Source: Qipengyuania pelagi
GTDB taxonomy: Bacteria > Pseudomonadota > Alphaproteobacteria > Sphingomonadales > Sphingomonadaceae
Reading direction: 5' to 3'
Assembly (NCBI RefSeq): GCF_009827295.1
Contig: NZ_WTYD01000001.1
Coordinates: forward strand, 1-64,000
Length of the DNA stretch: 64,000 nt
Part shown: piece by piece, positions 27,975 to 48,564 of the stretch
How the letters are laid out: each line of letters begins with the position of its first letter
Position numbering within the stretch: position 1 is the first letter of the stretch
Position numbers and translations under genes: made by a program
Notes under the pieces: generated by a model
What the model was told of the DNA's origin: nothing
The model's database searches: none
What the model saw: only the letters and a program-made list of their open reading frames with translations

Positions 27975-28038
27975 GAACGATCGATAAATAATATCTTGAA
28001 ACTGGTGGTCTACCCGCTTACAGAACGATCATTCAATA
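27975..28038. promoter_or_regulatory. Paired TetR operator candidates
   Basis: Two direct copies, GAACGATCGATAAATA (27,975-27,990) and GAACGATCATTCAATA (28,023-28,038), share GAACGATC and an AT-rich end. They sit 48 bp apart (start to start) in the divergent tetR / reductase spacer, the second just before the AAGGAG ribosome site. Confidence 0.5.
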
Positions 28039-28053
28039 ATCAAGGAGTCTCCA

Positions 28054-29043: not shown

Positions 29044-29061
29044 CCGGCATAGCGGCGCTGA

Positions 29062-30222
<1,161 letters not shown>

Positions 30223-30268
30223 CCCACCGATCCGAAGCGGCGCGAAGCGCTCGGATCGACAACTCAGC

Positions 30269-30301
30269 CGTCATCATGGCCCGACCCCGGCCATGATGAC
30301 G
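30269..30301 (+). terminator. Strong hairpin after frmA
   Basis: Perfect 13-bp stem CGTCATCATGGCC / GGCCATGATGACG with a 7-base loop, 47 bp after the frmA stop. It lacks a T-run, so termination would be atypical. Confidence 0.5.
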
Positions 30302-30399
30302 CGCCCTCTGGCAAATGGGCAACGCGTCGCGATGCATTCATCTGCTACCCGACTGTGATGAACCACGGGCCCACGGGCGAATAAGGCAGGAAGACTGAA

Positions 30400-33060: not shown

Positions 33061-33217
33061 GTCGTAAATCTGGTCGAAGGCACGTCGATCAGGTGCACCT
33101 CAAACCCACGCTGGAATGGGTCTTTTCTGGATGCGAGAGCCGGCGAGGTGTCACCGCGGATTGACGCGGCTCAGGGTTCGATTGCCCGTGAGGTGGGCCA
33201 TGTTCGTGTGATACGCG

Positions 33218-33254
33218 GCGTGGCGGACGGCCAATCGCTGGCCATCCGCCACGC
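33218..33254. terminator. Hairpin between converging uvrA2 and DJ-1 genes
   Basis: Stem GCGTGGCGGA / TCCGCCACGC with an inner GGCC / GGCC pairing and short loop, between two converging genes (stops at 33,060 and 33,317). No clear T-run. Confidence 0.5.
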
Positions 33255-33316
33255 TTGCTTTGTGCAGACCTTATCCATGGAGATGGCCCTCACGTGGTTC
33301 GTCGAAACGCCCCGTC

Positions 33317-33862
33317 TTAATTCCCTGCTGCGATTTCCTCGACGAGTTTGGCACAAAAGGCGGGCAAATCATCGGGATCGCGGCTGGTAACAAGCCCGTT
33401 GTCGACCACGACTTCCTCATCGGTCCATGTACCGCCGGCGTTCTCGATATCGACCTTCAGCGTCGGGTAGGACGTCAAGGTGCGACCCTTGAGCACGTCC
33501 GCCTCGATCAATGTCCAGGGTGCATGGCATATAGCCGCGACAGGTTTTTTCTGATCGAAGAAAGCCCGGATGAAACCGATTGCCTCGTCGCTGCCGCGCA
33601 GCTTGTCGGCACCGACGGTCCCTCCGGGCACGACAAGTCCGTCGAAATCGTCGGCTTTGACATCGGAAAACGTCTTGTCGATAGTATAGCTGCCGCCCTC
33701 GTCAAGATCGCCATTGACTGTGCGAGCCTTGCCCGGTTCAAAACTGACCACGGTCACTTTGCCACCAGCGTCCTCGACAGCTTGCTTGGGCTTCGAGAAT
33801 TCTGGTTCTTCCGTCCCGCGGGGTGCGATCAGAATGGCAACTGATTTGCCTTCCAAAGTCAT
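33317..33862 (-). CDS. DJ-1/PfpI-family protein, first copy
   Basis: 181 aa with the PfpI fold. The nucleophile elbow is AAICHAPWTLIEAD (Cys in the usual place, followed by His), and the conserved acid is the Glu in AILIAPRGTEEPEF. Family members act as glyoxalase III, protein deglycase or chaperone-like hydrolases against methylglyoxal and heat. It is about 30 bp downstream of fdhA on the same strand, so probably in one transcript with it. Preceded by GGAA-type ribosome site. Confidence 0.9.
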   Translation of the reverse strand: MTLEGKSVAILIAPRGTEEPEFSKPKQAVEDAGGKVTVVSFEPGKARTVNGDLDEGGSYTIDKTFSDVKADDFDGLVVPGGTVGADKLRGSDEAIGFIRAFFDQKKPVAAICHAPWTLIEADVLKGRTLTSYPTLKVDIENAGGTWTDEEVVVDNGLVTSRDPDDLPAFCAKLVEEIAAGN

Positions 33863-33893
33863 GGTTTATTTCCTGTTCCGTCGAGGATTTAGG

Positions 33894-35033
33894 TCAGGTG
33901 CCCGGCTTCAGCACGACCTTGGTCCAACCAGCATCGCGCTCGTCGAAGTGCTTGTAGGCGTCTGGCGCCTGATCAAGCGGCAATCGGTGCGAGATGATTT
34001 GGGCGGGGTTGGCCCGGTCTTGCTCGATAAGCTTCATCAGTCGCCGGTTGTAGTGCTTTACGTTGCACTGGCCGGTGCCGATCTTCTGGCCCTTGAACCA
34101 GAAGTCGCCGAAGTCGAAAGCGATCTTGCCTTCCTTCTGGAGATCGTCAGGCGCGTTCGGGTCTTCCGGAATGAATACGCCGACGACGCCGATCCCGCCG
34201 GTGGCCTTCGTGCTTTTGACGAGGCAGTTCATCGTGTAATTGCTGCGCTCCTTGCCGTGGCGATCGCAACACTGATACCCGACCGCCTCGACCCCCCGGT
34301 CGGTCCCGAGGCCGCCGGTCGCGTCAAGGATCTGCTGGGCGGGATCGCCCTTGCGCATGTCGATCGGAATAGCGCCCATCGCCTCGGCCAGTTTCAGGCG
34401 GTCATCGTGAGAATCCACCACGAAGATCTGAGAAGCACCACGAATTTCGGCTGAGTGCGCGGCCATCAAACCGACCGGACCGGCGCCGTAGATCGCGATG
34501 CTTTCGCCAGGCAGGAAACCTGACAGTTCGACGCCATGCCAACCCGTCGGGAAGATGTCGGAGAGCATGACATAGTCATCCTCCTTCTCCTCAGCGTCCT
34601 CAGGCAGCTTCAGACAATTGAAGTCCGCATAAGGAACGCGCATCAATTCGGCCTGACCACCTTGCCACGGACCCATCTCGGCAAAGCCATATGCTGCGCC
34701 GGCGGTGCCAGGGTTGGTCGTGAGGCAAAAACCCGTCAAACCGCGTTCGCAATTCTCGCAGAAACCGCAACCGACGTTGAACGGCATACACACGCGATCG
34801 CCCTTCTTGATACGATCTACGGCAGAGCCGACCTCGATGACCTCGCCAAGGTTTTCGTGACCGAAGACCCTGCCCTTCTCGAAGCTGGTACGGCCCTCAT
34901 ACATGTGCAGGTCCGACCCGCAGATATTGGTCGTGGTCAGCCGGATGATAACATCGGTCTGCTTTTCGATCTTGGGATCATCGATGGTATTGACGGAAAC
35001 ATCTTTGGGCCCGTTGTATACGACAGCTTTCAC
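33894..35033 (-). CDS. fdhA: Glutathione-independent formaldehyde dehydrogenase
   Basis: 379 aa. Zinc ligands are visible in TNICGSDLHMYEG (Cys) and FGHENLGEVIEVG (His-Glu), and structural-zinc cysteines in CGFCENCERGLTGFC. The segment YGFAEMGPWQGGQAELMRVPYAD and the NAD motif IYGAGPVGLMAAHSA are typical of FdhA, which keeps NAD bound and disproportionates formaldehyde. Residues VEAVGYQCCDRHGKER also match. It is the fourth aldehyde- or quinone-linked dehydrogenase in the island. It likely forms an operon with the downstream DJ-1 gene. Confidence 0.94.
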   Translation of the reverse strand: MKAVVYNGPKDVSVNTIDDPKIEKQTDVIIRLTTTNICGSDLHMYEGRTSFEKGRVFGHENLGEVIEVGSAVDRIKKGDRVCMPFNVGCGFCENCERGLTGFCLTTNPGTAGAAYGFAEMGPWQGGQAELMRVPYADFNCLKLPEDAEEKEDDYVMLSDIFPTGWHGVELSGFLPGESIAIYGAGPVGLMAAHSAEIRGASQIFVVDSHDDRLKLAEAMGAIPIDMRKGDPAQQILDATGGLGTDRGVEAVGYQCCDRHGKERSNYTMNCLVKSTKATGGIGVVGVFIPEDPNAPDDLQKEGKIAFDFGDFWFKGQKIGTGQCNVKHYNRRLMKLIEQDRANPAQIISHRLPLDQAPDAYKHFDERDAGWTKVVLKPGT

Positions 35034-35486
35034 GGATCTTTTCCTTTCGCAGCTCTTCTCAACGCGTCATCAAAGCGAGAGCGTGGTCATGATCCGGTCC
35101 ATCGGAACTGCGGAGGACATGGCACCCTTCGAATTGATCTCAGTTCTTGAACCTTCTGCCGCCTGAGAGGTTCCTTCGCGTTAGGGTCATCCTGGGTCGA
35201 TAAACGGCGGCATTTTGAATAACTTGGTCAGAACGCCCGAATAACGCGCCGAATTGATGTGCGCAAGAATCAGCCGCAGACCAATGGTGCCGTCCGTCGC
35301 GACACATTAACGGCGCCTTATCATTTAATGCAGAGGTGTGATGAGCTCAAAAGACAAGGCCATCCGCTATCGCGGATGGCCTGTCGTATTGATTTATTCA
35401 ATTCCCGGTTTGGTCGGGCCGTCCATTCAGGATGGAAACACGAGCCTTAATCTGCGGTCAGCCGGCAGCTTGGGCCGCCCGCTCCG
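35034..35486. other. Gene-free stretch containing a terminator hairpin
   Basis: No credible protein in either strand. The only structured element is the hairpin at 35,358-35,381. Confidence 0.5.
35358..35381 (-). terminator. Terminator for the ABM monooxygenase gene
   Basis: Perfect 10-bp stem GGCCATCCGC / GCGGATGGCC with a TATC loop. On the minus strand it is followed by TTGTCTTTTG. It lies 105 bp after the stop of the gene ending at 35,487. Confidence 0.65.
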
Positions 35487-35780
35487 CTATTTCGCGGCCA
35501 GCAGGGTGAACTTGTGAATCTGCGGCGGTTCAGAGAACAGTTCCTCTGCCTTCTCCATCAGTGCGGCGGCAACCTTGCCGTCAAGATGAGCCTGCCGATC
35601 CTCCTCGGTGTCGAACGTATCGAAAATCGCGTACGCACCGGGACCTTCCTCGATCGCGTACCAGGTCAGAGTGCCCGGCTCAGCTTGAACGAGCGGCAAT
35701 GCCGAGGTCAGGAAATCGGCGACATCGCGCTCTTTTCCGGGCTTGGCCTTCAGCGGTACATACAGGGCTAGTTTGGGCAT
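35487..35780 (-). CDS. Antibiotic-biosynthesis-monooxygenase (ABM) domain protein, quinol-monooxygenase-like
   Basis: 97 aa, a single ABM domain: LYVPLKAKPGKERDVADFLT, then GTLTWYAIEEGPGAYAIFDT and DRQAHLDGKVAAAL. Related proteins (YgiN type) oxidise quinols without a cofactor, or degrade polyketide rings. It lies at the 3' end of the minus-strand detoxification cluster, 111 bp after an SDR gene, and is followed by a terminator. The substrate is unknown. Confidence 0.85.
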   Translation of the reverse strand: MPKLALYVPLKAKPGKERDVADFLTSALPLVQAEPGTLTWYAIEEGPGAYAIFDTFDTEEDRQAHLDGKVAAALMEKAEELFSEPPQIHKFTLLAAK

Positions 35781-35891
35781 AATTGACTCCTCAAGTGAAA
35801 CGGACAGATATTATTCGGCAACTTAACGGACGAGCGGGCCGGTACGTTCCCCATGAGGCGGAGCGCACGCGGCCCCGCCTCCCGGTCGAAA

Positions 35892-36632
35892 TCAGAACTC
35901 CTGTGCGGTCGGCCGGATGACGATCGCGTTGACGTCGACGTCATCAGGTTGTTCGACAGCGAACGCGATAGCACGCGCCACCGATGCCGCCGGAATGGCC
36001 TGCTTGTAGAAGTCCAGCACCGTCTCGGCAGCCGTGCCGGATGTCGTGAACTTCAGATCGCTTTCGACAGCTCCAGGCTCGATTGACGTGACCCGGACTT
36101 TTTCCCCCACCTCGTGGCGCAAGCCTTCGCTGATCGCGCTGACGGCAAACTTGGTGCCGGAGTAGACCGTGCCGCCCGGTGCGAAGACCTTGATACCCGC
36201 AACCGAGCTCAGGTTGATGATGTGACCGCTGCCCTGCTCGAGAAAACCGGGAAGGGCCGCCGCGATGCCGTAGAGCGTACCCTTCAGATTGACGTCGATC
36301 ATCTGGTCCCACTCGTCGGTGTTGACCTCGGCCATCGGACGGATCGGCATCAGCCCGGCGTTGTTGATCAGCACGTCGAGGCGGCCGAAGTCGGCAATGA
36401 TTGCGGCGACGACAGACTGGACCGCCGATTTGTCGGTCACGTCCAGCGCGTAGCTACGTGCCGTGCCACCGTTTGCGGCGATGTCCGCGACGACCTCGTC
36501 GAGCCTGTCCTTGCGCCGCGCGGCGATGGCCACCTTCGCGCCGCGTTCCGCGAGAAGACGCGCTGTTTCCGCGCCGATGCCGCTGCTGCCGCCGGTAATG
36601 AGAACGACCTTGCCTTCGATACCCTTTGTCAT
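35892..36632 (-). CDS. Short-chain dehydrogenase/reductase
   Basis: 246 aa classical SDR. The cofactor motif is VLITGGSSGIGAETARLLAE, followed by Arg in AAIAARRKDRL, which favours NADPH. NNAGLMP is the structural motif. The catalytic Ser and Tyr-x-x-x-Lys are in NLSSVAGIKVFAPGGTVYSG TKFAVSA. It reduces a ketone or aldehyde of unknown identity, and is close to the YdfG/clavulanate-dehydrogenase-like branch. It sits between the MRJP-type gene and the ABM gene on the same strand. Confidence 0.92.
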   Translation of the reverse strand: MTKGIEGKVVLITGGSSGIGAETARLLAERGAKVAIAARRKDRLDEVVADIAANGGTARSYALDVTDKSAVQSVVAAIIADFGRLDVLINNAGLMPIRPMAEVNTDEWDQMIDVNLKGTLYGIAAALPGFLEQGSGHIINLSSVAGIKVFAPGGTVYSGTKFAVSAISEGLRHEVGEKVRVTSIEPGAVESDLKFTTSGTAAETVLDFYKQAIPAASVARAIAFAVEQPDDVDVNAIVIRPTAQEF

Positions 36633-36708
36633 GTCTGTATTCCTTCAAGTCAGTTGTTGATTTTTCGCCGGATCGCGGCTCCGCGCGAGCCTGCCCGGCC
36701 TGATGGGA

Positions 36709-37860
36709 TCACTGTGATCGCAAGAGAACGGGCCCGGCGCCCACCCGGATGCGGAGCAGCTCGTAAGGCTTACGGCGTAAATCCCGTCCGCCGTGAAAGC
36801 CGGGCTGGCGGTGGAGCTGGTTGGCAGTGAAGTAGAGATAGCCGTCGGTGCCGATCGACAGCGTGTCGGGCCAGCTGATGCGGGGGTCGCTGACCACCGT
36901 CGTCCAGCGGCCCTGGTTGAGTACGCGGATTGCGTTGTTCTCGTAATCGCCGGCGAACACGCGGCCCTTGTCGTCCTCGGCAATCCCGTCCGAAGCGCCT
37001 TTGCGCCCCAGGCTGCGTACCGCGCGGGCCAGTTCCTCCTCGGTCACCGCAGGATCGCGCAGCAACGCCGTGGGCACCGCGTGAAGCGTGCGGCCCGATA
37101 GCGGACCGTAATACAGCATGCTGCCGTCGGCGCTGAGCGCAATCGCGTCGCTCGCGATTGCTAGGGGCGTCGCGCGGCCGTCGACCGGACGGTTCATCAG
37201 CACCGCGCCGTCGACAACCGGGGTGAAGCCGGGCTCCGGATTGGTCGTCACATGGTTCGACAGGCGCCGGATCGCACGCCCGCTGGCAATATCGACGACG
37301 ATGATGCCGCCGATCCCCGCGTTGCTGCTGTCGGTGATGTAGGCGACGCCCTCGGCGCCCTGACGCAGATCGAAGCGCACGTCGTTGAGGTAGGTCGTGG
37401 GCAGCACCACGCTGGGCGGCAGGACGATCGTCTTCACCACCCGGTCGGTCGCAAGATCGATCGCCACCAGCTTTGCCCCGCCGGCCTGCGGCTGAAAAAA
37501 TTTAGGCGCGGCCGTGTCGAGCACCCAGAGGCGGTTGGCGCCATCGGCCACCACGCTCTGCACCGAGATGAAGTGCCCCGCCGGGTCGGCCGGATCGGGC
37601 CGGTTGGTCGCGGCGTCGGGATAGGGCACCGCCTTGCCGTCGACCAGCTCGGCAACCGTGAACGGCGCGTTGTCGCCCCATTGCGGGAAGTTGACGAAGA
37701 TGCGCCCGTTGGGGGCGACGGTCACGCCCGTCGGCATCGCGCCATCGAAAGTCGCGACCTGTTCGATTTGCGGCGCGGATGCACCCTCGCGGGTCGTCGC
37801 GCAGGCAGCGAGCGAGAGGGCAGCGCCAGCGGCCAGAAGCAGTTTGACGGAGATTTTCAT
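36709..37860 (-). CDS. Major-royal-jelly/L-dopachrome-tautomerase-related lipoprotein
   Basis: 383 aa from the ATG at 37,860, which overlaps the preceding stop (ATGA); the longer open frame upstream is antisense noise. Signal sequence with lipobox LSLAAC (residues ~17-22), so it is likely membrane-anchored in the periplasm. The body is a beta-propeller: GVTVAPNGRIFVNFPQWGDN, WVLDTAAPKFF, TYLNDVRFDLRQG, YITDSSNAGIGGIIVVDIA and GASDGIAEDDKGRVFAGDYE are typical of the MRJP/yellow family. Bacterial members are annotated as L-dopachrome tautomerase-related; true activity is unproven. It is third of an overlapping operon with old yellow enzyme and glyoxalase genes. Confidence 0.88.
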   Translation of the reverse strand: MKISVKLLLAAGAALSLAACATTREGASAPQIEQVATFDGAMPTGVTVAPNGRIFVNFPQWGDNAPFTVAELVDGKAVPYPDAATNRPDPADPAGHFISVQSVVADGANRLWVLDTAAPKFFQPQAGGAKLVAIDLATDRVVKTIVLPPSVVLPTTYLNDVRFDLRQGAEGVAYITDSSNAGIGGIIVVDIASGRAIRRLSNHVTTNPEPGFTPVVDGAVLMNRPVDGRATPLAIASDAIALSADGSMLYYGPLSGRTLHAVPTALLRDPAVTEEELARAVRSLGRKGASDGIAEDDKGRVFAGDYENNAIRVLNQGRWTTVVSDPRISWPDTLSIGTDGYLYFTANQLHRQPGFHGGRDLRRKPYELLRIRVGAGPVLLRSQ

Positions 37861-38963
37861 GGTGTCATTTCCTTGAGGACGCGGCCCGCCTCGGGGGGCT
37901 CGGACCGGAGGTATTGCGGCGGCGCCTTTACCGATGCGCCAAGCGCGGCGGCGGCGTGCCAGGGCCAGCGCGGATCCCACAGCGCTGCGCGGGCTATCGC
38001 TATGGCGTCGGCATGCCCGTCTTCGAGGATGCGCTCCGCCTGGTGCGGATCGGTGATCATTCCGACCGCCACGACAGGCATGGCGACCGCGTCCTTGACC
38101 GACCGCGCCAGCGGCACCTGATAGCCGGGGCCGACAGGGATCTGCTGACGCGGGTCGAGGCCGCCGCCGGAGACGTGGATTGCCGAACAACCGCGCCGCT
38201 CCAGCTCCTGCGCGAACCTTGCGGTTTCCTCCGCCGTCCAGCCGCCTTCAACCCAGTCGGTACCGGAAACGCGGACGGTCACTGGGCGGTCGGCCGGAAA
38301 CGCTTCGCGCACGGCATCGAACACTTCGAGCGGGAACCGCATCCGGTTGTCGAGGCTGCCGCCGTAGTCGTCGCCGCGCCGGTTGGAGATCGGCGAAAGA
38401 AACTCGTGGAGCAGATAGCCATGCGCGGCGTGGATCTGGATGGCTTCGATGCCCAACCTGCCGGCGCGCCGGGCGGCATCCGCGAACGCCTCCCGGATGC
38501 GGGCAAGCCCTGACTCGTCCAGTTCGACAGGGGGATTGTCGTCCGGAGCGAAGGGAATGGCGCTGGGTGCCACGGTCTGCCAGCCATTCTCCGCATCGGG
38601 GGCGATCTGCGTTCCGCCGTGCCACGGCTTGGCGCAGCTCGCCTTGCGGCCGGCATGCGCCAGCTGGATAATCAGCGGCATGTCCGACCATCGGCGAACG
38701 CTTTCGAGCACGCCTCGCATCGCCGCTTCGGTCGGCTCGTCGTACAGGCCGACGTCGCCGTAGGTGATGCGCCCTTCCGGACTCACGGCAGTCGCCTCGA
38801 TCGTCAGCGCGCCCGCGCCCGACAGCGCCAACTGGCCGAGATGCATCCGGTGCCAGTCTGTCATCGCGCCGTCTTCGGCCGAATACTGGCACATCGGCGC
38901 GATGACGATGCGATTGGCGAGCCGGAGCCCAGCGACCTCGAGCGGTTCGAACAGGCGCGCCAT
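37857..38963 (-). CDS. Old yellow enzyme, NADH:flavin oxidoreductase (YqjM/NamA class)
   Basis: 368 aa from the ATG at 38,963, overlapping the glyoxalase stop (TGATG). FMN-binding and catalytic blocks are visible: NRIVIAPMCQYSAEDGAMTD (Cys26-type residue typical of YqjM), IIQLAHAGRKAS, and the His pair in IQIHAAHGYLLHEFLSPISN, followed by RRGDDYGGSLDNR. It reduces alpha,beta-unsaturated carbonyls and nitro compounds with NADPH. Members of this class typically respond to electrophile stress, which suits the operon (DJ-1, glyoxalase, MRJP). Confidence 0.94.
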   Translation of the reverse strand: MARLFEPLEVAGLRLANRIVIAPMCQYSAEDGAMTDWHRMHLGQLALSGAGALTIEATAVSPEGRITYGDVGLYDEPTEAAMRGVLESVRRWSDMPLIIQLAHAGRKASCAKPWHGGTQIAPDAENGWQTVAPSAIPFAPDDNPPVELDESGLARIREAFADAARRAGRLGIEAIQIHAAHGYLLHEFLSPISNRRGDDYGGSLDNRMRFPLEVFDAVREAFPADRPVTVRVSGTDWVEGGWTAEETARFAQELERRGCSAIHVSGGGLDPRQQIPVGPGYQVPLARSVKDAVAMPVVAVGMITDPHQAERILEDGHADAIAIARAALWDPRWPWHAAAALGASVKAPPQYLRSEPPEAGRVLKEMTP

Positions 38964-39418
38964 CACCAAGCGCCCGTGTTGGGCATGGAGGCCCAGGGTT
39001 CGGCCGGGGCCTTGTGTTCGCCCTTCTGGAGCAGTTCGATCGAAATCCCGTCCGGCGAGCGGACGAACGCCATGTGTCCGTCGCGCGGGGGGCGATTGAT
39101 CGTCACGCCGCCCGCCTGCAGCCGCGCGCACGTCTCGTAGATGTCGTCGACCCCGAAGGCGAGGTGGCCGAAGATTCGGCCCCCGGTATAAGTCGCCGCA
39201 GCGCTGCCGTCCTCGGGCGGCCAGTTGTACGTCAGCTCGACCTCGGCATCGCCCTGCTCGCTGTCGCCGCGGAAATCCTCGTCGGCGGCAAGGTAGATCA
39301 GCGTGTAACGCCCGGCCTGGTTCTCCATGCGCCGGGTCTCCTTGAGACCCAGCAGCGTGAAGAACCGGATCGCCGCCTCGGGATCGGCGACGCGGATCAA
39401 GGTGTGAAGATAGCGCAT
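38963..39418 (-). CDS. VOC/glyoxalase-I-like protein
   Basis: 151 aa. Two beta-alpha-beta-beta-beta modules with metal-ligand positions: [20 protein letters not shown] (His), [38 protein letters not shown] (His) and [14 protein letters not shown] (Glu). This is the ligand set H-E-H-E of lactoylglutathione lyase. It is predicted to isomerise the glutathione hemithioacetal of methylglyoxal. It starts 2 bp after the DJ-1 gene and overlaps the old yellow enzyme gene. Confidence 0.9.
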
Positions 39419-39420
39419 GG

Positions 39421-40230
39421 TCAGGCCACCTTGTCCTTGAGGGCTTCCATCACGAGCTCCGCCGTGCGGGTAGCGCTGGCGGGGTTCTGCCCGGTCACCA
39501 GATTGCCGTCGCGTAGGGCGAAGGGGGCAAAATCGGGGCCGCCCTCGTGTTTGCCCCCGAGTTCCTTGAGGCGCGTTTCGAGCAGGAACGGCACCGCCTG
39601 ATCGAGGCCGACCGCGCGTTCCTCGCTGTCGGTGAAGCCCGCGACACGGCGGTCGGCGACGAAGGGCGTGCCATCGGCCTTCTTCGCCGAGACCAGCCCT
39701 GCCGGTCCATGGCAGACGGCGGCAACGATCTTGCCTTCGCGGTCGAAGCGTTCGACCAGGCGGGCCAGTTCGTCGCTGCCGGGGTAATCGAACATGGTGC
39801 CGTGGCCGCCGGGCAGGAACAGCGCGTCGTAGCCGGCGGGATCGATGCTTGTGAATACAGGGGTGCTGGCAACCTCGGTCTTCAGGGCGTCGTCCTTCAG
39901 ATAGCGCTCGACCGAAGTGTCGTTCTCACCGTCGGCGTTGACGCTGCGCTGGTCGACGGGGATGGCGCCACCCTTGATGGAGGCCAGCGTCACCTCGGCG
40001 CCCGCATCGCGGAAGGCATAGTACGGGGTGGTAAGTTCCTCGAGCCAGACACCCGTCGGTTCGGTGCCGGGAGTCATGCGGTCGGCGGATGTGGCCACCA
40101 TGAGAATGCGGGTCATCGTCAATTGTCCTTTTCCATTGATGTCGGGGGCACGAGCAAACGCAACCGGCGCAGCCGCACCCGCCACAAGGGCAGCGGTGAA
40201 AGCTTTCAGCAGTTGGAGGCGATTTTGCAT
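39421..40230 (-). CDS. DJ-1/PfpI-family protein (glyoxalase III-like), second copy, possibly secreted
   Basis: 269 aa from the ATG at 40,230. The first ~28 residues form a signal-like peptide ([20 protein letters not shown]). A second ATG at codon 39 (base 40,116) also has a good ribosome site (AAAAGGAC) and begins [16 protein letters not shown], where relatives usually start. Two protein forms, exported and cytoplasmic, are possible. The nucleophile elbow is [11 protein letters not shown], and the conserved acid lies in [14 protein letters not shown] (Glu). The segment [13 protein letters not shown] is typical of Hsp31/ElbB-like glyoxalase III. It is the first gene of the four-gene operon and divergent from a LysR gene. 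Confidence 0.9.
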
Positions 40231-40301
40231 TCGCTCGTTCCTTTCGGCGGCCTAGATAGGCAGGGAACGGCATCATGAAATCCAGCGGGAATGGTGGACG
40301 G

Positions 40302-40319
40302 CCATAAATTCGCTTATGG
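40302..40319. promoter_or_regulatory. LysR-type operator
   Basis: Perfect palindrome CCATAA-ATTCGC-TTATGG, which fits the T-N11-A rule of LysR boxes, 7 bases before the preferred lysR start and ~75 bases upstream of the divergent DJ-1 operon. Confidence 0.65.
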
Positions 40320-40326
40320 AACCGGA

Positions 40327-41205
40327 ATGTCACTTCTGCAGTTGCGCACCTTCGTCGAAGTCTACCGCCGTCGTTCACTGAGCGAGGCGGCCCGGGCAAT
40401 CGGCATCACCCAACCGGCGGCGTCGCAGCACATCGCATCGCTCGAGGCGCAACTGGGCCGTCCCTTGTTTGATCGCCATTCGCGGGGTGTTCGACCAACA
40501 GTAATTGCCGACGATCTCGCGGCTTCGATCGGAAGCAGCCTCGACACGGCGGAATCGGCACTGGCCAGCGCGCGGGCCCGATCGTCGCGCATCTCGGGCA
40601 CGGTCCACATCGCCGCGCCGTCGGACCTGCTGGGAGAGATGATCACGCCCCGACTGGCTCCGCTGCTGGAAGCAGGGCTGGACCTGCGCCTGCATATCGG
40701 CGGGCGCGAGGCGCTTTATACCATGCTCCTCGAAGACAAGGTGCATCTGGCTGTCACCGCCTCGCAACCCGAAGATCCGCGCCTGGCCTTTCATGCGCTG
40801 GGCGAGGAACACCTGCGCGCCGTAGCTTCTCCCGCCGTGGCCATGCGGATTGCCGAATTGCCGCTTGCCGACGGGCTCAACCGGACGGCCCACCTCGCCT
40901 ACGATCTTGACCGGCCGCTGTTGCGGACCTGGCTCGAGGCAAACCAGATCGAGCTGACGAACCAGCCCGCCTTGACCGCACCCGATCTGAGGGTGCTACG
41001 GTCGGGATTGCGCGCGGACCTCGGCTGGACGGTACTGCCCGGCTATCTCATCCGCAGCGAACGCGCTGCCTGCACGCTGATCGAGATACCCGCGCCGATC
41101 ACGGTTCCCCGCAACGCCTTCTACCTCGTCTGGGCGCGCTCATCGCTGCGCCATCCGCGCGTCGCCATGGCTCGGGACGCCCTGATTGCTGCACTCCGAA
41201 CATAA
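40327..41205 (+). CDS. LysR-family transcriptional regulator
   Basis: 292 aa from the ATG at 40,327 (MSLLQLRTFVEVYRRRSLSE); the ATG at 40,291 would put a perfect operator inside the coding sequence. The HTH is AARAIGITQPAASQHIASLE. The rest is the periplasmic-binding-like effector domain (SGTVHIAAPSDLLGEMITPR onward). It is divergent from the DJ-1/glyoxalase/old yellow enzyme/MRJP operon and probably activates it upon sensing a reactive electrophile (inference from position and operator). Confidence 0.9.
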   Translation: MSLLQLRTFVEVYRRRSLSEAARAIGITQPAASQHIASLEAQLGRPLFDRHSRGVRPTVIADDLAASIGSSLDTAESALASARARSSRISGTVHIAAPSDLLGEMITPRLAPLLEAGLDLRLHIGGREALYTMLLEDKVHLAVTASQPEDPRLAFHALGEEHLRAVASPAVAMRIAELPLADGLNRTAHLAYDLDRPLLRTWLEANQIELTNQPALTAPDLRVLRSGLRADLGWTVLPGYLIRSERAACTLIEIPAPITVPRNAFYLVWARSSLRHPRVAMARDALIAALRT

Positions 41206-41274
41206 TGGTGGCCACGCCTGTTGGGCCGTGAGCGCAATGTCGGGTCTGAACCGGTTTAGCGCTGGCGGAAAGAA

Positions 41275-41349
41275 TGGCGGCTTTCGGGATCGTCGGCGAC
41301 AAGGCCGAACGGCCGGATGTGGGGCGCAAAGCGGACATCACGTATTCTG
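41275..41349 (+). repeat. Dispersed degenerate repeat, copy 3
   Basis: Starts TGGCGGCTTTCGGG and ends with a 29-base block (GGGGCGCAAAGCGGACATCA and 9 more) that differs from copy 2 at two positions. It lies in the 41,206-41,611 gap, where I see no gene. Confidence 0.6.
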
Positions 41350-41611
41350 GACCGTCAGTTGCGTTGGCGACTGCATTAAACAACCCATAACCAGTTGTGA
41401 ATGTCTGCTGGGAAAGAGCGGCCGCAGCCTTAGGCGATGGGCCGCCGGGGTTCTATCTTCGCGAGGATTACAGCCGTCCAGCGGGAAGAATTTCGGGCGC
41501 GCCGATCGCGGCGGCGAGTACAGCTCCATACTGCTTGAAGGGCCTAGCTTTCGGGAAGTGCGTAGGGAGGAAAAGCCTACGGCTTCGCCGTTAAAGCGAA
41601 AGGATTAAGAC

Positions 41612-42220
41612 ATGGTTGATGGAGATGGGGAAAAGCGTTCGGTGATCGAGGCACTTCGAGAGCTCAGCGTGTCCGACCCCGCAGTGCAGGTGCACATCGC
41701 AAGTTACACGAAAGCCTTGGGCGAGATGCTCCGGGGCCGACCGATCGATCAGGTAGGTGCGAAGCACGTGACCGCGGCCGCCTGCTTCACCATGGACGAG
41801 AGCGACCGAAACTACCTCATGGCGGCGTCAGTGAGGCTGCTGATAGATCAGGCCGTCCTCACGTTCGATGTCGATGATCCCATGGGAGAGCCGACCGGAA
41901 TCGTAGCCGTCCGTCTGGAAGAGCCGGAGGTGGCCTTCTATGGACGTTGCAGGCTTTGGGCACCGGCCAATGACGGCAGGGTGCTCATAGTGCCTGAAGC
42001 GGACGCCGAGCGCCATTTCGAAGCCAGCGGGCATAGACTCGTCGAACGCTGGCGCCGCCTGCCAGGATCGCTGGACGCCGGAGAGAAGCGCGCTTGGCAT
42101 CGGATGAGAATGCTGGCGAAGACCTTCGACCGCGGTGACCTCGAAGGGGCGCGGCTCAACGTGCTGAGCAAGGGTGACGACGGTCGATTGACGGCCTTGG
42201 TGACCCGTCTGGCAGCTTGA
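41612..42220 (+). CDS. Hypothetical protein, function not recognised
   Basis: 202 aa with an AAGGA ribosome site 8 bases before the ATG. It is soluble and mixed acidic/basic. A helical N-terminal part (EALRELSVSDPAVQVHIASY) is followed by a beta-rich middle (LTFDVDDPMGEPTGIVAVRL) and a basic C-terminus (DAGEKRAWHRMRMLAKTFDR). No signal peptide, membrane helix or known motif is visible. It is followed by a G+C-rich hairpin and lies in the recombinase-bearing right end of the island, so it may be cargo of that element. Confidence 0.7.
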   Translation: MVDGDGEKRSVIEALRELSVSDPAVQVHIASYTKALGEMLRGRPIDQVGAKHVTAAACFTMDESDRNYLMAASVRLLIDQAVLTFDVDDPMGEPTGIVAVRLEEPEVAFYGRCRLWAPANDGRVLIVPEADAERHFEASGHRLVERWRRLPGSLDAGEKRAWHRMRMLAKTFDRGDLEGARLNVLSKGDDGRLTALVTRLAA

Positions 42221-42231
42221 GCAATGCGAGC

Positions 42232-42252
42232 GGAGCGGCGTCAAGCCGCTCC
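42232..42252 (+). terminator. Hairpin after the 202-aa hypothetical gene
   Basis: Stem GGAGCGGC / GCCGCTCC with a GTCAA loop, 11 bp after the stop. No T-run follows, so termination efficiency is doubtful. Confidence 0.45.
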
Positions 42253-42553
42253 GCCGTTGCAGGAGACGAGCGGACGCTGTCGCGCGAGCCTCGGTCCTCC
42301 CCCCACCTCGACATCGAGGTGCTCAACGAAAGACCATCCGGATTGCTTAACCGCGCGGCCATGTTCGATACCTTGGTGGGCAGAACGCCTTTCGCCGACC
42401 AGACCTGAAGCCAGGCTCTTGACCGTGTTCAGGTACACCTGAGTTCCATGTCCATTATCGTTCCGATATGTGGGGCGAGGCGATGACGAACATTCTGCAG
42501 TCGATCCCAAGAGGATATGCCGTGGGCGGGCTGGCGAGCCGAGGACGATTATC

Positions 42554-43150
42554 ATGCGTGCAGGATCCCTTACCGAACTGATGAGCTTCGCGGCAGTGGC
42601 GGAGGAGTTGAGCTTCCGCCGTGCCGCGGTCCGCATGAACGTTTCCCCGTCTGCGCTCAGCCATACGATCCGTCGCCTCGAAGAACGTCTCGAGGTGAGC
42701 GAACTGCAGGCGATGCTACAGGCAATGGGGCGCGGCCGTGCGGAACTTCCCGAGATCGAGCTTCTCTCGTCGCATCTCAGCTTGCCCTTGCGCGGAAATC
42801 TCGCCTACGCCGCGCTAGCTGTCACGTTCGAGCTCGTCACCAACGCCCTCAAGTACCGGGTCGTCGACTTTCCAATCCGTGTTACCATCAGGGCCATGGG
42901 AGGGCGCGTGGAGCTGTGCGTAATCAGCCGACCTTCATTCGAGATGCAGCCGCTCGTCGGGGGAGGAACAGGAACGCCCCTGATCGAGCGGATCGTCCGC
43001 GATGTTGGCGGAGAGTTCGCGACGAGACTCCAGAGTGGCGACCACATCGCGCGCGTTCTCCTGCCGCGGGTTCCCAGACCCGACCATGGCGGGAGAAGAC
43101 GCGTCAGACCGGGAAACGGAAAGGGCCCTTCTTCAATCCCTATCGTATGA
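42554..43150 (+). CDS. LysR-type HTH fused to a histidine-kinase-like ATPase domain
   Basis: 198 aa from the ATG at 42,554 (GAGGA ribosome site 8 bases upstream). Residues ~5-52 are a LysR DNA-binding domain (ELMSFAAVAEELSFRRAAVR, NVSPSALSHTIRRLEERLEV). Instead of an effector domain, the chain continues with a HWE/HisKA_2-type ATPase fold: LAVTFELVTNALKYRVVD is the N-box (E and N), GTPLIERIVRDVGGEF the G-box region. The middle W-E motif of HWE kinases is degraded (ELCVISRPSF) and no phospho-acceptor His region is present. It could be a functional one-component regulator or a chance gene fusion. Confidence 0.7.
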   Translation: MRAGSLTELMSFAAVAEELSFRRAAVRMNVSPSALSHTIRRLEERLEVSELQAMLQAMGRGRAELPEIELLSSHLSLPLRGNLAYAALAVTFELVTNALKYRVVDFPIRVTIRAMGGRVELCVISRPSFEMQPLVGGGTGTPLIERIVRDVGGEFATRLQSGDHIARVLLPRVPRPDHGGRRRVRPGNGKGPSSIPIV

Positions 43151-43435
43151 TCGCGGGCGCAGTTCGACGTCCTCGTATTCCACGTTCTCGAGGAGGTGAG
43201 TGAGCGGAACCTGCAGTCCGACCGCCAGTCGAGCGAGATTTCGTAAGCTGGGCAACGTCCGACCCGCTTCCAGCCGCCAGATATAGGCCTGCCGCATCCC
43301 GCACCGTTCGGCCAGCTGCGTGCCGTCGATACCGGCATCCTGGCGCAACAGGCGCAGGCGCTCGCCCAGGCTTCGCGCAAGGCGGTCGTCAGCACTTCCA
43401 GTATCGTCTCGCGGCTTCGTCATCGTCGCCAGCAT
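43133..43435 (-). CDS. XRE-family helix-turn-helix regulator
   Basis: 100 aa from the ATG at 43,435 (AAGG 9 bases upstream; a second ATG follows at 43,423). The HTH_3 domain covers ~20-80: ERLRLLRQDAGIDGTQLAER, then GMRQAYIWRLEAGRTLPSLR and LARLAVGLQVPLTHLLE. It is the small phage/plasmid-type repressor. It converges with, and overlaps by 18 bp, the LysR-ATPase fusion gene. It may govern the nearby recombinase genes (inference). Confidence 0.85.
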   Translation of the reverse strand: MLATMTKPRDDTGSADDRLARSLGERLRLLRQDAGIDGTQLAERCGMRQAYIWRLEAGRTLPSLRNLARLAVGLQVPLTHLLENVEYEDVELRPRSYDRD

Positions 43436-43836
43436 ACACCCGACCCTTCCTTCGGGCCATCGGCGCGACGCTTGTTCTCCCCGAAAGTCATCGTCACGAC
43501 TGCAACACGAGTGCCTTCTTGACGACGAAATCAGGGACCTCATCGCAAACAGGGCCAAGACGGATTCTGCCCGTTCGATCGCACTTACCGATGCTTAAGT
43601 TGCAGCGACTAAAGGCGACCAGATGGCTACCCCGTTATCAGCCCGTCTCCTTCAGACGCTACAGCGACACCGGTTGCGATCCAGGGGCGCATCACGCGTC
43701 TTCGCCCCAGCACGGCGCCGGGAAGTCTTGTGCTAGCGGCGGGAAAGCATCCCCGAGCGACGCTCCACGCCGTCCTTCGTGCATATCCACCGCCGGAGGA
43801 CTTGGCAGCGGCGACCCGGCGTCTTAGCCTGCGGCG
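43436..43836. other. Gene-free stretch between XRE regulator and 183-aa gene
   Basis: No frame gives a credible protein, and I see no strong hairpin or repeat. Confidence 0.45.
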
Positions 43837-44388
43837 ATGAACTCCAGCGGTCCGCAGATAGGGTATTCACAGCTCGTAAAACTTCTCGTTACCGTCTTTG
43901 GGGTCCCCGAGCAGGGAGAGAAGGCGCTCCGGGCCAGGCTGAAGAACCTGCAAGCCAAGAATTTTCCACCCGGCGTCAACCTGGGTCGACTGGGCCGTGT
44001 CGCGTACGGCCCCCGTGAGGTGGCCATGCTCGGGCTTGTGCTCAGTCTCACCTCATCTTTCGTGTCCCCCGATGTGGCGGTGAATACCGTTCTGAAGGAA
44101 TGGAAGCTGCTGGCCGAGGCGCTGCGCGAAGGTGCCCGCGGCAAGGGCCGGGTTGGCGCTCTGGCCACATTCCGGGCGAACGCTCTCGGGTCGCTCGGTA
44201 AGGGTTCCAAGAAGCAGGCGCCAGTGATGGACGTCGTGATCCGCTGGCCCGACGAAAGGAAAAAGGGTCAGCCGGGACCGCTCATCCTTGTCGATCTCGA
44301 TGACTTGGCGGAGCGACTGGTCAAGGGAATGTCCGGCGTCGTCGACGGGCTAGCCGAGAATACTCCATTGTTCGCGGAACTCGAGTGA
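43837..44388 (+). CDS. Hypothetical protein with a possible MerR-like winged helix
   Basis: 183 aa. The N-terminal ~95 residues (YSQLVKLLVTVFGVPEQGEK, RARLKNLQAKNFPPGVNLG, RVAYGPREVAMLGLVLSLTS, SPDVAVNTVLKEWK) read like the short winged helix that precedes MerR-type coiled coils: an L-x-x-L-Q-x-x-x-F-P-P-G turn and a helix near Y-G-P. The C-terminus (VMDVVIRWPDERKKGQPGPL, ILVDLDDLAERLVKG) is unknown. It converges with the tyrosine-recombinase-like gene, with 121 bp between the stops. A role as regulator or directionality factor of the element is a guess. Confidence 0.65.
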   Translation: MNSSGPQIGYSQLVKLLVTVFGVPEQGEKALRARLKNLQAKNFPPGVNLGRLGRVAYGPREVAMLGLVLSLTSSFVSPDVAVNTVLKEWKLLAEALREGARGKGRVGALATFRANALGSLGKGSKKQAPVMDVVIRWPDERKKGQPGPLILVDLDDLAERLVKGMSGVVDGLAENTPLFAELE

Positions 44389-44509
44389 GCGGCAGGTAGT
44401 CGCGGAACAACCCAGCGCGGACGGCCCCCTCCTGAGGTAGGACCGTTCGGAGCACCGACTATCCGACCTGCAGTCATGCAGTTCCCACCGGAACAGACAT
44501 GTTGGTTTC

Positions 44510-46099
44510 TCATCGGGCTAGCCCGAGCACCAGCCTGCGATCGAAGCCTGCCTGCTGCTGATCGAAGATCGGGTCGGACTTAGCCGCGCGCTCGAGGGTC
44601 TTCTCGAACGCGTATCGCGCCTTCACCATCGCGACGGAGGTCTGGAGCAGATTGGCCGCTCGTTCCCATCTTCCCTCGTCGGTCGCAGTACGTACGATGT
44701 GCGTGGCTAGAATGTCCCTTATTGCATGTGGTCCGAAGGCCATGCGGCCCTCGACCGGTAGTCCGGTCAGCGGATCGATGACCCAATTTAACCGTGTAAA
44801 GTCCCTGATGATCTGACCGAGTGCGTCGTAGGTCATCGCTGTACCATTGGAGTCGGGGAACAGCACCGAATACACCCGCTTGCCCTTGCGGATCGCGCGG
44901 TCGGACAGGAGAGGAAGGCAGTTTTCGACGTAGTGATCGAAGAGATGGGCCAAGCCCCACCAGTCGTGGCAGTAGCGCTCGTAGTCACGCTTGGTATCGG
45001 GGGTTCCGAAGAAATCGACCTGCGAGAAGTTCTTGAAGGATTCCCAAGGGATATGGAGTCTCAGCCCGATGGGGGTATCGCCATCGCGATCAAGGACGAT
45101 CTGACCGCCATCGCCCGATCTGTAGAGGAGCTCCCGGATGTTCTGCGATCGGAGGCATGTGACACAGAGCAGAAGGAAAACGAGCAGGTTGCGGACCGCG
45201 ATCGCATGAAGCATCGGTTGCGCTTCCTGCTTCGGCAGGGCACCATAGGCGTGTTCGATCATCGCGGTAACGTGGTCCAAAGGTCTTTCGGCTTCCAGTA
45301 TCTCCTGGACAGGTTCGAACGGATCACGCGATTTCTCGACAAGCCGCTTCATGTACGAATACATGTTCCCGAGGCGCGCATTCGTATCAATCACGAGACG
45401 CAGCCAGTCGTCTTCCGCCCTCGCGCGAAGGTCGTCCGGAACGAGCGGGCCGAGCGAACCGAATTCCTCGGGCGTCTTCGAATACCTGGTCGCGTCCTCC
45501 TCACGGTCGAAATCCTCGAACGTGAATTTGCGCGCCCTGATGCTGTCGAGGCCCTCGCATGATCCCAAGGGGCGCTCGTCGGCCTGTATCATGGGCAAGA
45601 AGATGTCGCTTCGCTGCGTGATGAACCCGTAGCGCGGATGCATCAGCATCCTGATGAAATGCACGAAGTTTAGATCATAGGCCGTCAACAGCGGCTGAAG
45701 CGGCACGTCCTCGTCGGGATCGACGCGGAGCCGCGAGCAGAAGTCGATATAGGCTAATACCACCTTCCTGTTGAGGAGGAGGGCCAACGAAACCCGGTCC
45801 GGTTCCAGACCGAGCCCACCCAGTTCCGCAGACGCGCATGCATACCGGGCGAAGCGTTCGATGTGCCTTCGAAATATCTTCGCCGAGTCCTTCTCCCAGG
45901 CGCCGTTGGGGCTCCTCTCGAGTTCGGGATCGATCGCGCTCTTGTGTGCGACTATCTGTTCGACCTCGTTGAAGATCGGGCAAGACCTCGCCGGTGGGGG
46001 CACCTTCTTCCAGTACTTGCTTCTGGCATCCTGCGAACGCGTGAAATCCCGGTCCTGACGCTCGACCTTCGCCTCGTACAATTGGACGCGTCGCCTCAA
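44510..46099 (-). CDS. Large tyrosine-recombinase-like protein
   Basis: 529 aa. The C-terminal third shows the tyrosine-recombinase pattern: TCLRSQNIRELLYR (box-I Arg), GPHAIRDILATHIVRTATDE (H-x-x-R) and LLQTSVAMVKARYAFEKTLE (catalytic Tyr in RYAF). The N-terminal half is helical and may bind DNA. The start is uncertain: the frame stays open upstream for ~100 bases (AKGRDLSLDDDELRRR) without ATG or GTG, and the TTG at 46,099 looks internal, so the N-terminus may be truncated or use a rare start. Such enzymes integrate or excise mobile elements. It is near the comM junction. Confidence 0.75.
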   Translation of the reverse strand: MRRRVQLYEAKVERQDRDFTRSQDARSKYWKKVPPPARSCPIFNEVEQIVAHKSAIDPELERSPNGAWEKDSAKIFRRHIERFARYACASAELGGLGLEPDRVSLALLLNRKVVLAYIDFCSRLRVDPDEDVPLQPLLTAYDLNFVHFIRMLMHPRYGFITQRSDIFLPMIQADERPLGSCEGLDSIRARKFTFEDFDREEDATRYSKTPEEFGSLGPLVPDDLRARAEDDWLRLVIDTNARLGNMYSYMKRLVEKSRDPFEPVQEILEAERPLDHVTAMIEHAYGALPKQEAQPMLHAIAVRNLLVFLLLCVTCLRSQNIRELLYRSGDGGQIVLDRDGDTPIGLRLHIPWESFKNFSQVDFFGTPDTKRDYERYCHDWWGLAHLFDHYVENCLPLLSDRAIRKGKRVYSVLFPDSNGTAMTYDALGQIIRDFTRLNWVIDPLTGLPVEGRMAFGPHAIRDILATHIVRTATDEGRWERAANLLQTSVAMVKARYAFEKTLERAAKSDPIFDQQQAGFDRRLVLGLAR

Positions 46100-46218
46100 T
46101 TCGTCGTCGTCCAGCGACAGATCGCGCCCCTTCGCTCTGCGTCTGGATCGGGGAACTCTCCAGTTACTCGCAGACGAGCCTGCCTCCCGGTCTGGTCGAT
46201 CGCGGCGCTCTCGACAGG

Positions 46219-46443
46219 GTGATGGAAGACCGCGACCGGTTCGCCGGATTCAGGTCCGCGGTGAACATCCGAATGGCGCATGCCGATCCGGAAAACGCGC
46301 TCGACGCGGCGAAGGTCTCCGACGAGTGTTTCGCCCTCGTGACACGCGCCTACCTGAAGCATTCCGGCCTGGACCTGCTGCCGGATCGGATCGTCGGGGA
46401 GACAGCGATACTGTGGTACCGACTTCAGCAGGGGTTCCTATAG
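46219..46443 (+). CDS. Hypothetical protein, possibly a 5'-truncated remnant
   Basis: 74 aa from ATG at 46,219, but the frame reads convincingly further back (ELSSYSQTSLPPGLVDRGAL DRV) to ~46,140, opposite the N-terminus of the recombinase gene. Sequence FAGFRSAVNIRMAHADPENA and DLLPDRIVGETAILWYRLQQ looks like real protein of unknown family. The stop overlaps the 3' end of the truncated serine recombinase. It may be the C-terminus of a gene cut by the same rearrangement. Confidence 0.45.
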   Translation: MMEDRDRFAGFRSAVNIRMAHADPENALDAAKVSDECFALVTRAYLKHSGLDLLPDRIVGETAILWYRLQQGFL

Positions 46444-46790
46444 AGACGCGAGCCATCGACGGTAGCTACAGCAACTCCGGCCTCGGTGAGGTTCATCATC
46501 CACATGAACACACGGCCCGGTTCCTGACGCGAAAGACGGTCGAGTTTCTCGCAGAGAAGAATGACCCCGTCCGGGTAGCGCCCTGCTTCGACATCCCTCA
46601 CAAAGTGACCAAGCGACCCTGTCGATGCGTGTTCGCCCTTGAAAGCGCTGATGCCATCATCGACCAGTTCGTCGATCACCGCCCAACCGTTCTCGGCAGC
46701 ATGACGACGGCAGTCGTCTCTCTGTCGCTGGAGACTCGATCCCTTCCCCTGTTCAGCGCTCGACCAACGAATATAGATCACGCAGTCCAT
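46425..46790 (-). pseudogene. Serine recombinase (resolvase N-terminal domain), 3' truncated
   Basis: 121 aa. The resolvase domain is clear: VIYIRWSSAEQGKGSSLQRQ contains the catalytic Ser (in the YIRWSS segment), followed by VIDELVDDGISAFKGEH, YPDGVILLCEKLDRLSR (conserved D-R-L-S-R) and MNLTEAGVAVATVDG. Large serine integrases continue for ~350 more residues (recombinase and zinc-ribbon domains); here the frame ends at 46,425 in RLYRNPC. The start lies only 46 bp from the comM break, the usual place of an integrase gene beside its attachment site. Confidence 0.85.
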
Positions 46791-46831
46791 CGGAAGCTCA
46801 CTTATCGGAAATATCGATTTAGGTGTAGCCG

Positions 46832-46846
46832 TATCTTACCTGAAAA
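46832..46846. other. Insertion junction / candidate attachment site in comM
   Basis: On the minus strand CATAATCTT of comM runs directly into TTCAGGTAAGATACGG, foreign sequence that leads into the serine recombinase gene. The coding match to comM ends within 9 bases here, which places the crossover at about 46,840. Confidence 0.65.
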
Positions 46847-47477
46847 GATTATGCCCGCCCGCCGCGGCGATCTCCAGCGCGCGCTTGGCGGTCTCCTGCC
46901 CCTTCACGCGCTTGAGATCGGGGCCGGGCGGGGCGGCTTCGACTACGCCCGGTTGCGGTTCGGGAAGGCGTTGAGTGCCCTTCAGATGATTGAGCAGGCT
47001 GGCGAGATCGGGCGCTGCCACCACCGGAACCTCGCTCGCCCATTTCGCTTCCGAGCCCTGCGCGCGCGGACAGATCAGACCGCATTCCTGCTCGCTCGCA
47101 TGGATCGCCGCGAGCAACACGCCGGGCGAGGGGACGATGCGGGCATCGAGTGCGAGTTCGCCGACCGCGATATATTCGGTCAGCTGTTCGGCATCGGTGA
47201 CGCCCATCGCCGCGAGCAGGGCCAGCGCGATCGGCAGGTCGTAATGCGACCCTTCCTTGGGGAGATCGGCGGGGGACAGGTTCACCGTGATCCGCTTGGG
47301 CGGCAGGGCCAGGCCCATGGCGGACAGGGCCGCCTGCACGCGTTCGCGGCTCTCGCCCACCGCCTTGTCGGGCAGGCCGACGACCATGAAACGCGGCAGG
47401 CCGGGCGCGACCTGGCACTGCACCTCCACGGCGCGCGCCTCCAGGCCGAGATAGGCCACCGTGCGAACCAGTGCGAC
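46836..47477 (-). pseudogene. comM: comM (Mg-chelatase/YifB family), 5' part, cut at the P-loop
   Basis: The native start is probably the GTG or TTG near 47,477 (VALVRTVAYLGLEARAVEVQ); the frame to 47,648 is open but reads poorly. The N-terminal Lon-like domain is intact (PRFMVVGLPDKAVGESRERV, ITVNLSPADLPKEGSHYDLP). The AAA domain begins KRVKGQETAKRALEIAAAGG HN and breaks off as LFR-stop, exactly where the family has LLM-G-P-P-G-x-GKS. ComM is a helicase for branch migration in natural transformation. The ATPase half is not in the window. The stop is supplied by inserted DNA. Confidence 0.9.
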
Positions 47478-47646
47478 CAAACCAAACCCCCGAAATGTCC
47501 CCGCCGTTAACCGTTCTTTGCGGGGAGAAGCGCCGCCTGTCGAGTGCGAAGGCGGCTGAAAAGCGCGGATCGCGTAAACGGACATGAAGGGCCTGTTAGG
47601 GAAAGCCGTTGGGAGCTCTGCAAGTTCGCGCGGCGATACCGGTCTC

Positions 47647-48564
47647 ATGACCCGACTCGCTCCCTTCGCGTTCGCCGCTCTCGCAACCTGCGCCGCTTCC
47701 CTGGTCGGCGCCGCGCCCGCTGCGGCGCAGTCGCTCGGCGTGATCCATCTTCCCAGCCAGCCGCTGGTTCTGGAAGCGCATCATCCGAAACTGCCCTACG
47801 TCATGCCGAGCGCGGTGATCCCCGGGCAGGCGTTGGTTTATGCCGTGGCCCCGACGGACCTTCCGGCATGGAGCCCATCGCATTCGGTCCAGACCTCCGT
47901 TGGGCGCGCGCAGACGCAGCGCTTCGTCGAATCGCATCGCGTTCGCCCCACCTACGGGGCGGTCGAATACGGACCGTTCCGGGTCATCGACGGGCAGACC
48001 GTCGCTCTCTTGGGCGAGACCGATTCGCGTAGTCCGGCGCATTTCGCGCGACTCCTGCGCGACCATCCCGGTCTGGCGCGGCTCGAAATGGTGGAATGCC
48101 CCGGCACGCTGGACGATCGGGCCAATCTCGAACTCGGCCGCATGATCCGCCGCGCCAGGCTGTCGACAGTGGTGCCGGCCAACGGCTCGGTGCGATCCGG
48201 CGCGGTCGAACTCTTTCTTGCGGGCGTGGAGCGCCGAATCGACAATGGCGCCGAGTTCGCGGTCCATAGCTGGCGCGACGAATACGGGCGCGAAGCTAGC
48301 GATTTCTCCATGGAGGCGCCGCAGAACCGCACCTATCTCGACTATTACCGCGAGATGGGCATGGATGAGGGGCAGGCCCGCGCTTTCTACGCCATGACCA
48401 ATTCGGTCCCGCATCATCGCGCCCGCTGGATGCGCGCGGGCGAGATGCGCGAATGGGTGGGCTATCGCGCGCCTGTCGAACGGCCTATGGTCGAGCGCAG
48501 CCCGATGCCGGTCCAGCGGGCGCAGAACCCGCGGATCGCCTATCTCTCGCTCGAGGTGTCGTGA
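47647..48564 (+). CDS. Secreted hypothetical protein, ClpP/COG3904-like
   Basis: 305 aa from the ATG at 47,647, which starts a clean signal peptide (MTRLAPFAFAALATCAASLV, then AAPAAAQS). The mature part includes YGPFRVIDGQTVALLGETDS, MVECPGTLDDRANLELGRMI, RRARLSTVVPANGSVRSGAV and ELFLAGVERRIDNGAEFAVH SW. The alternating strand / G-S-x-x-SG-A-x-x-F pattern resembles the periplasmic ClpP/crotonase-fold proteins of COG3904, where the Ser and His would be catalytic. Function unknown. It ends in a terminator before rpmH. Confidence 0.7.
   Translation: MTRLAPFAFAALATCAASLVGAAPAAAQSLGVIHLPSQPLVLEAHHPKLPYVMPSAVIPGQALVYAVAPTDLPAWSPSHSVQTSVGRAQTQRFVESHRVRPTYGAVEYGPFRVIDGQTVALLGETDSRSPAHFARLLRDHPGLARLEMVECPGTLDDRANLELGRMIRRARLSTVVPANGSVRSGAVELFLAGVERRIDNGAEFAVHSWRDEYGREASDFSMEAPQNRTYLDYYREMGMDEGQARAFYAMTNSVPHHRARWMRAGEMREWVGYRAPVERPMVERSPMPVQRAQNPRIAYLSLEVS

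Follow-up and report, generated by a model that had tools for sequence, protein, structure and literature searches.

The comM gene as a likely attachment site for a large serine integrase heading segment arrays in Erythrobacteraceae

Integrons pair a tyrosine recombinase (IntI) with folded attC sites, and in them one integrase heads an array of segments that share an orientation and have recombination sites between them. Serine recombinases accompany the ssrA islands of Dehalococcoides, where islands with DsiB lie in tandem with the recombinase gene beside attL (PMC3146451, in part), and SCC elements carry ccr recombinases, large serine recombinases that use one housekeeping gene as target (PMC10581047, in part). 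In A. baumannii, AbaR and other elements interrupt comM within its Mg-chelatase domain, and fewer strains are transformable (PMC11472951, in part).

Here we describe an array inserted in comM in a 3.03-Mb genome of nine contigs (G000), whose relatives, as found by name, are Erythrobacter, Qipengyuania and other Sphingomonadales; the window is the whole stretch analysed, the first 64 kb of contig C1. By analogy, the insert may be called integron-like in layout and SCC- or ssrA-island-like in logic. As in integrons, a single integrase stands at the head of a segment array with recombination sites; unlike in integrons, it is a serine recombinase and not the tyrosine integrase IntI, and the segments (those of the G003 array) measure 1.4 to 31 kb. 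Tandem islands at one chromosomal gene, a serine recombinase of ~540 residues beside attL, islands without an integration module and non-conjugative cargo are all shared with the Dehalococcoides islands; there, however, the islands occupy ssrA, their boundaries are marked by a 20-bp direct repeat, and 16/31 have their own module, whereas the target here is comM and the arrays have one family integrase per genome (PMC3146451, in part). Re-pairing of half-sites is not described for the ssrA islands in section 5 of that paper. SCC elements likewise include ones without recombinase genes and composite islands, but their target is rlmH or rimL, their hosts are Gram-positive and their direct repeats measure ~18 bp (PMC10581047, in part), whereas the joints in comM are candidate hybrid P/B-like sites. 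AbaR, which shares with the present insert its position inside the Mg-chelatase domain, as do other resistance islands and mobile elements, is Tn7-like with TniA/TniC (PMC11472951, in part), in contrast to the serine integrase and 2-base core found here. No description of this array system was found in the literature searched, a search that most subscription papers fall outside.

The original prediction, made from the window alone, held that comM is split at its P-loop beside a truncated serine integrase, that the split is the border of a large island and that the 3' half of comM is missing from the 46.8 kb to the left; all of this was borne out. Read on the minus strand from 47648, the comM frame tracks uninterrupted relatives to AAAGGHNL (Walker A), with foreign sequence beyond and the core of the joint at 46843-46844. 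The ORF itself (46836-47648, minus strand, 270 aa) contains a ChlI domain (E 6.4e-38) and the first 26 positions of Mg_chelatase. The rest of the gene, which the prediction had proposed to seek elsewhere in the genome, was located by whole-genome Pfam and protein searches on contig C4 in two pieces, residues 245 to ~337 at C4:2620-2919 and the C-terminal part at C4:19095-19700, and is therefore absent from the DNA left of the split. Foreign DNA lies between the comM halves, and comparing the junctions with each other and with uninterrupted sites in relatives, as had also been proposed, defined attL and attR halves with the central dinucleotide TT. In this genome comM is in three pieces through two insertions, at Walker A and at Walker B, and is inactivated. 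The features at the Walker A border are as follows.

46845..47648, minus strand: 5' part of comM, to residue 244 of reference ComM (Walker A); domain search and alignment with relatives
46843..46844, minus strand: attL core dinucleotide, TT when read on the minus strand; joint comparison, same TT in the C4 right joint
46823..46842, minus strand: L1 arm of the element, putatively P-type by symmetry with the right arm; arm comparison
46425..46790, minus strand: truncated large serine integrase, 121 aa, ~117 of them matching the family; domain search and alignment

The left joint (attL) reads CATAATCTT-TT-CAGGTAAGATACGGCTACAC and the right joint on C4 (attR) reads GTGTAGGTATATCGAACCTG-TT-GATGATCGG. 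Read outward, the element arms of G000 are imperfect inverted repeats (15/20 bases identical), and this combination of inverted arms with a short core common to attL and attR is that of large serine integrase elements. The TT core is supported because G024, in which comM is broken at residue 316 and uninterrupted at the Walker A site, reads CACAATCTTTTAATG at that site. A core at AA, or three bases upstream of TT/CT, was ruled out by arm symmetry and by the G024 sequence; G010 taken alone would not decide where the core lies. Among the eight arrays with both ends known, the first core base of attL and of the last attR is the same in five (G000, G003, G016, G018, G065) and differs in three (G010, G053, G080), and in G000 the core is TT at both ends and CT at the inner joints.

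The sole domain of the 121-aa ORF is Resolvase, and the ORF corresponds to the N-terminal ~117 residues of a large serine integrase of ~535 aa; across 117 residues it aligns at 75-85% with the 531-538-aa integrases that four relatives carry in this position. Intact integrases have Resolvase, Recombinase and zinc-ribbon domains (the G003 copy, and precomputed Pfam domains of homologues); the ~420 residues missing from the window's own element are not in the 64 kb (best tblastn match 38%, E 0.95). With its integrase truncated, the array in this genome is therefore probably stuck unless helped in trans. The integrase family occurs in 11/60 genus genomes, one copy in each (10 full length, with only that of G000 truncated), and just upstream of every copy comM ends at residue 244-247. 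Beyond the genus it was found at E <= 1e-120 in 1/249 sampled genomes of the wider taxonomic family, the best five candidates or fewer being scored per genome. G017, G044 and G046 carry divergent integrases, just 33-41% identical, at the right joint of this comM site, and G067 has one (38% identical) at the left joint. The loci with such divergent integrases at Walker A are L164 (7312-8997), L171 (1823-3388), L133 and L266, three of them with the integrase at the right joint, joined at what appears to be the same CT. The use of comM by a serine integrase, also part of the original prediction, is thus backed by the 10 full-length copies at the same site in other genomes, by the attL and attR halves with their TT core and by uninterrupted relatives. 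The Walker A codons of comM appear to be the attB of a large serine integrase family in Erythrobacteraceae; the gene for the integrase lies immediately within attL.

The second insertion in comM is a transposon of ~16 kb (C4:2903-19100, L039) that cuts the gene at LFLDELPEF (Walker B). Its ends are 26-bp inverted repeats with one mismatch, bordered by an 8-bp target duplication (GAATTCCA), and it carries an IS1595-family transposase, type I restriction-modification genes, two RepB-like proteins and a 624-aa serine recombinase, which was treated as cargo; the inverted repeat, the 8-bp duplication and the internal IS1595 transposase rule out a serine-integrase element. The gene is cut at the same Walker B place, by ends similar in form, in G014, G015, G018 and G019; the ISXO2-like transposase characteristic of IS1595, along with the terminal inverted repeat and the 8-bp duplication, was found in G000, and the transposase also in G014 and G019, the two of these four relatives that were checked for it. 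IS1595-type transposons of differing sizes sit at the Walker B codons of several species, at the same GAATTCCA-type site (L039, L165, L166, L167 and L160), and this recurrent site suggests a target preference of such transposons.

Breakage of comM in the genus is neither chance nor a one-off. Half of the same-genus loci (11/22, a count without G009 and G022, which have no locus in it) are broken, with six of the breaks at residues 244-249, four at 337 and one at 316. The figure is 13/80 for named loci, a set that has at least three genomes (L044, L045, L048) in common with that of the genus, and in other families 6/7 loci are intact and one ends with its contig. Further breaks were seen in other Sphingomonadales at residues ~275 (L063, L079, L094, L104), ~316-323 (L010, L110) and ~369-377 (L085, L119), and another serine recombinase (L144) lies near the residue-275 break in the genome of L094.

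The right-end arm of the element is found again within the island, at window 21294-21315, and a single further copy lies on contig C5. At the inner joint in the window, the sequence can be divided as follows.

21296..46842, minus strand: array head segment (25.5 kb), running from attL to the first of the inner joints; joint scan
21296..21315, minus strand: inner right-end arm R (GTGTAG..AACCTG); recurrence of the right-end arm
21294..21295, minus strand: inner-joint core, CT when read on the minus strand; joint comparison
21240..21293, minus strand: left module of the next segment (L2, with a B-type-like arm); module comparison
20217..21239, plus strand: gene at the left end of segment two, encoding the 340-aa orphan protein P0003; protein search
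1..21293, minus strand: second segment, cut by the contig end; joint scan

Judged from these arms, the insert is a chain of the form comM-left / L1-int ... R / L2 ... R / L2 ... R / comM-right, with one integrase of the family at its head. In G003 the insert spans 84 kb and has four inner right-end arms before the comM-joined one (segments of ~30.9, 1.36, 8.3, 22.4 and 21.3 kb), while by the same scan the last right-end arm is the sole one in the G010 and G016 inserts. The head segment of the window carries dehydrogenases, an old-yellow-enzyme-type oxidoreductase, a UvrA-like ABC protein and LysR regulators, and the second segment GroEL-type and Hsp20 chaperones, an M48 peptidase, CheB/CheR, histidine kinases and transporters; positions 1-19900 form a chaperone/stress cluster of these genes, in which the transporters are of antiporter type. 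No conjugation genes were noted among the scanned ORFs, a selection of those of the window. The 340-aa protein, without a Pfam match and with only 26 homologues in the protein collection, stands leftmost in six segments from four genomes, facing the joint. An identical 2,541-bp sequence containing an IS91-type transposase and a tyrosine recombinase lies at contig ends of G000 (C4:1-2541, C5:1-2541 and C5:51742-54282). A firm placing of C5 between C1 and C4 was dropped on account of this repeat at both C5 ends and the C4 start; it is also undercut by window 1-3785, which shares 97% identity with a stretch of the final G080 segment, whose right-end module is that of C4.

The right-end pattern, at one mismatch or fewer, has 49 matches in 16/60 genus genomes (reversed control, 1) and is tied to the integrase, being present in 11/11 integrase genomes vs 3/49 others (Fisher p 1e-9 after dropping the doubtful G062, whose match is without the TCCACAG box, and G064, whose match fails a stricter expression; 1.3e-8 without dropping). 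Joints at the comM locus face as comM does in G003 (5/5), G065 (6/6), G080 (2/2) and G053 (2/2), counts that leave out matches in G083 and on other contigs of G013, G018, G077 and G079. Four joints lie far from comM on comM-bearing contigs, at 1.58 Mb in G016, 3.13 and 3.14 Mb in G065 and 0.44 Mb in G080, the last without the usual TCCACAG box. In the wider family, matches at one mismatch are near chance (30 in 25/249 genomes vs ~23 control matches in 22 genomes). Nine of these 30, picked as nearest the consensus, were inspected: three are joined to comM (G188, G091, G126) and six to L2-like sequences. The C5 joint is matched over the 82 bases shown in G091 and G191, which belong to other genera.

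Across 40 sources (the window and 39 loci, a selection, with joints too near a locus end or without a fetched locus missing), 42 distinct junctions comprise 25 R types and 16 L2 types plus comM in 34 pairings; six R types have 2-3 partners and seven L2 types 2-4. A 1,358-bp segment is common to G003, G077 and G065, and an 8.3-kb segment to G003 and G065. The last two genomes are 99.9% identical over 10.9 kb, starting 23 bases before a joint core, and their upstream halves differ; the sequence after the window joint is 86% identical to that after a G003 joint over 1.1 kb from 75 bases past the core, and the sequences preceding the two joints differ. In 16 chosen pairs with one common half, R modules agree over ~75 bases and L2 modules over ~50 or more. 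These comparisons show that R and L2 modules have been re-paired between genomes at the core. Partners also change at the outer edges of the modules (~75 and ~50 bases from the core), and recombination other than at the core is therefore involved as well. At a locus away from comM (L253, L239-L240), G065 has an extra 10.9-kb segment relative to G016, between near-identical flanks, with joint sequences exchanged on both sides.

L2 arms resemble the comM right arm, with a mean of 8.9/18 vs 5.0 at random array places (the largest of 5000 null means was 7.0), and CCG is present at +14..16 in 15/16 L2 types (background 0.03); they show some likeness to the P arm too (mean 7.2/18). From sequence we infer that the R and L1 arms are of P type and that the L2 arm is of B type, in which case the inner R.L2 joints would be attR-like and the head attL-like. 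The best explanation, to which we give a probability of about 0.68, is that comM is the attB of the serine integrase, that the chain has attR-like joints and that the head block leaves and re-enters. Recombination of attL with any inner attR would release the integrase-bearing head block and leave behind comM-left.L2, an attB-like joint; once released, the block could insert into an unoccupied comM or at another array's head, creating a new R.L2 pair. Joints of the comM-left.L2 type are seen in G008 and G048, and the Recombinase domain has no match in G008 and two in G048, neither at comM. No circle, excision or activity was seen, and movement is deduced throughout. Against this explanation stand the core disagreement in 3/8 arrays, the TT ends vs CT inner joints of G000, the shifting module edges, the four far joints and the likeness of L2 to the P arm.

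Several of these points would suit an ordinary serine-integrase island in comM, whose inner R.L2 joints would be a dispersed repeat that homologous recombination and transposons, not the integrase, have spread and re-paired: module edges away from the core shift too, beside repeated palindromic motifs, core bases are not always in agreement and IS91-type and IS1595-type elements are present. We consider this unlikely: R modules that match one another fully for ~75 bases abut comM in some genomes but L2 in others, the sequences parting at the core, and the right-end motif is tied to the integrase as shown above. The L2 flank as a dispersed repeat was rejected, its repeat motif having 0 matches in the window. 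Still less probable is an integron-like traffic of single segments, in which integrase-less R.L2 circles would enter at the attL of the array head or be swapped from one R.L2 site to another. Such traffic would fit the single integrase heading a same-orientation array and the 1,358-bp segment common to three genomes, but insertion at attL would leave R.L1 inside the array, and in the scanned stretches, which include several incomplete arrays, L1 arms are found only beside comM. The alternative exchange, attR x attR, is not a usual serine-integrase reaction. That a local deletion or an assembly error made the split, as the contig end in the window and the 2,541-bp repeat at the C5 ends and C4 start might hint, is very improbable: comM halves with the same joint lie on one contig, 18.6 kb (G016), 41 kb (G010) and 84 kb (G003) apart, which contradicts the simple local deletion that the original prediction had set against itself.

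A wider reading may be ventured, tentatively and as something we hold to be rather less than evenly probable. One comM-fixed integrase would build and re-sort the segment array through hybrid attR-like joints, as a serine-integrase counterpart of the integron, with new DNA captured through B-type half-sites and the system common across species and genera.

The gene comM encodes a helicase for natural transformation, and by analogy with other bacteria its loss may reduce transformation in this organism. It appears to be a repeated target of mobile DNA well outside Acinetobacter, and in the present case two kinds of element cut the codons of its two ATPase motifs, Walker A and Walker B. The arrays supply naturally re-paired half-sites that may be used to read the att rules of a serine integrase, and a directly testable case of segment shuffling by a serine, not a tyrosine, recombinase.
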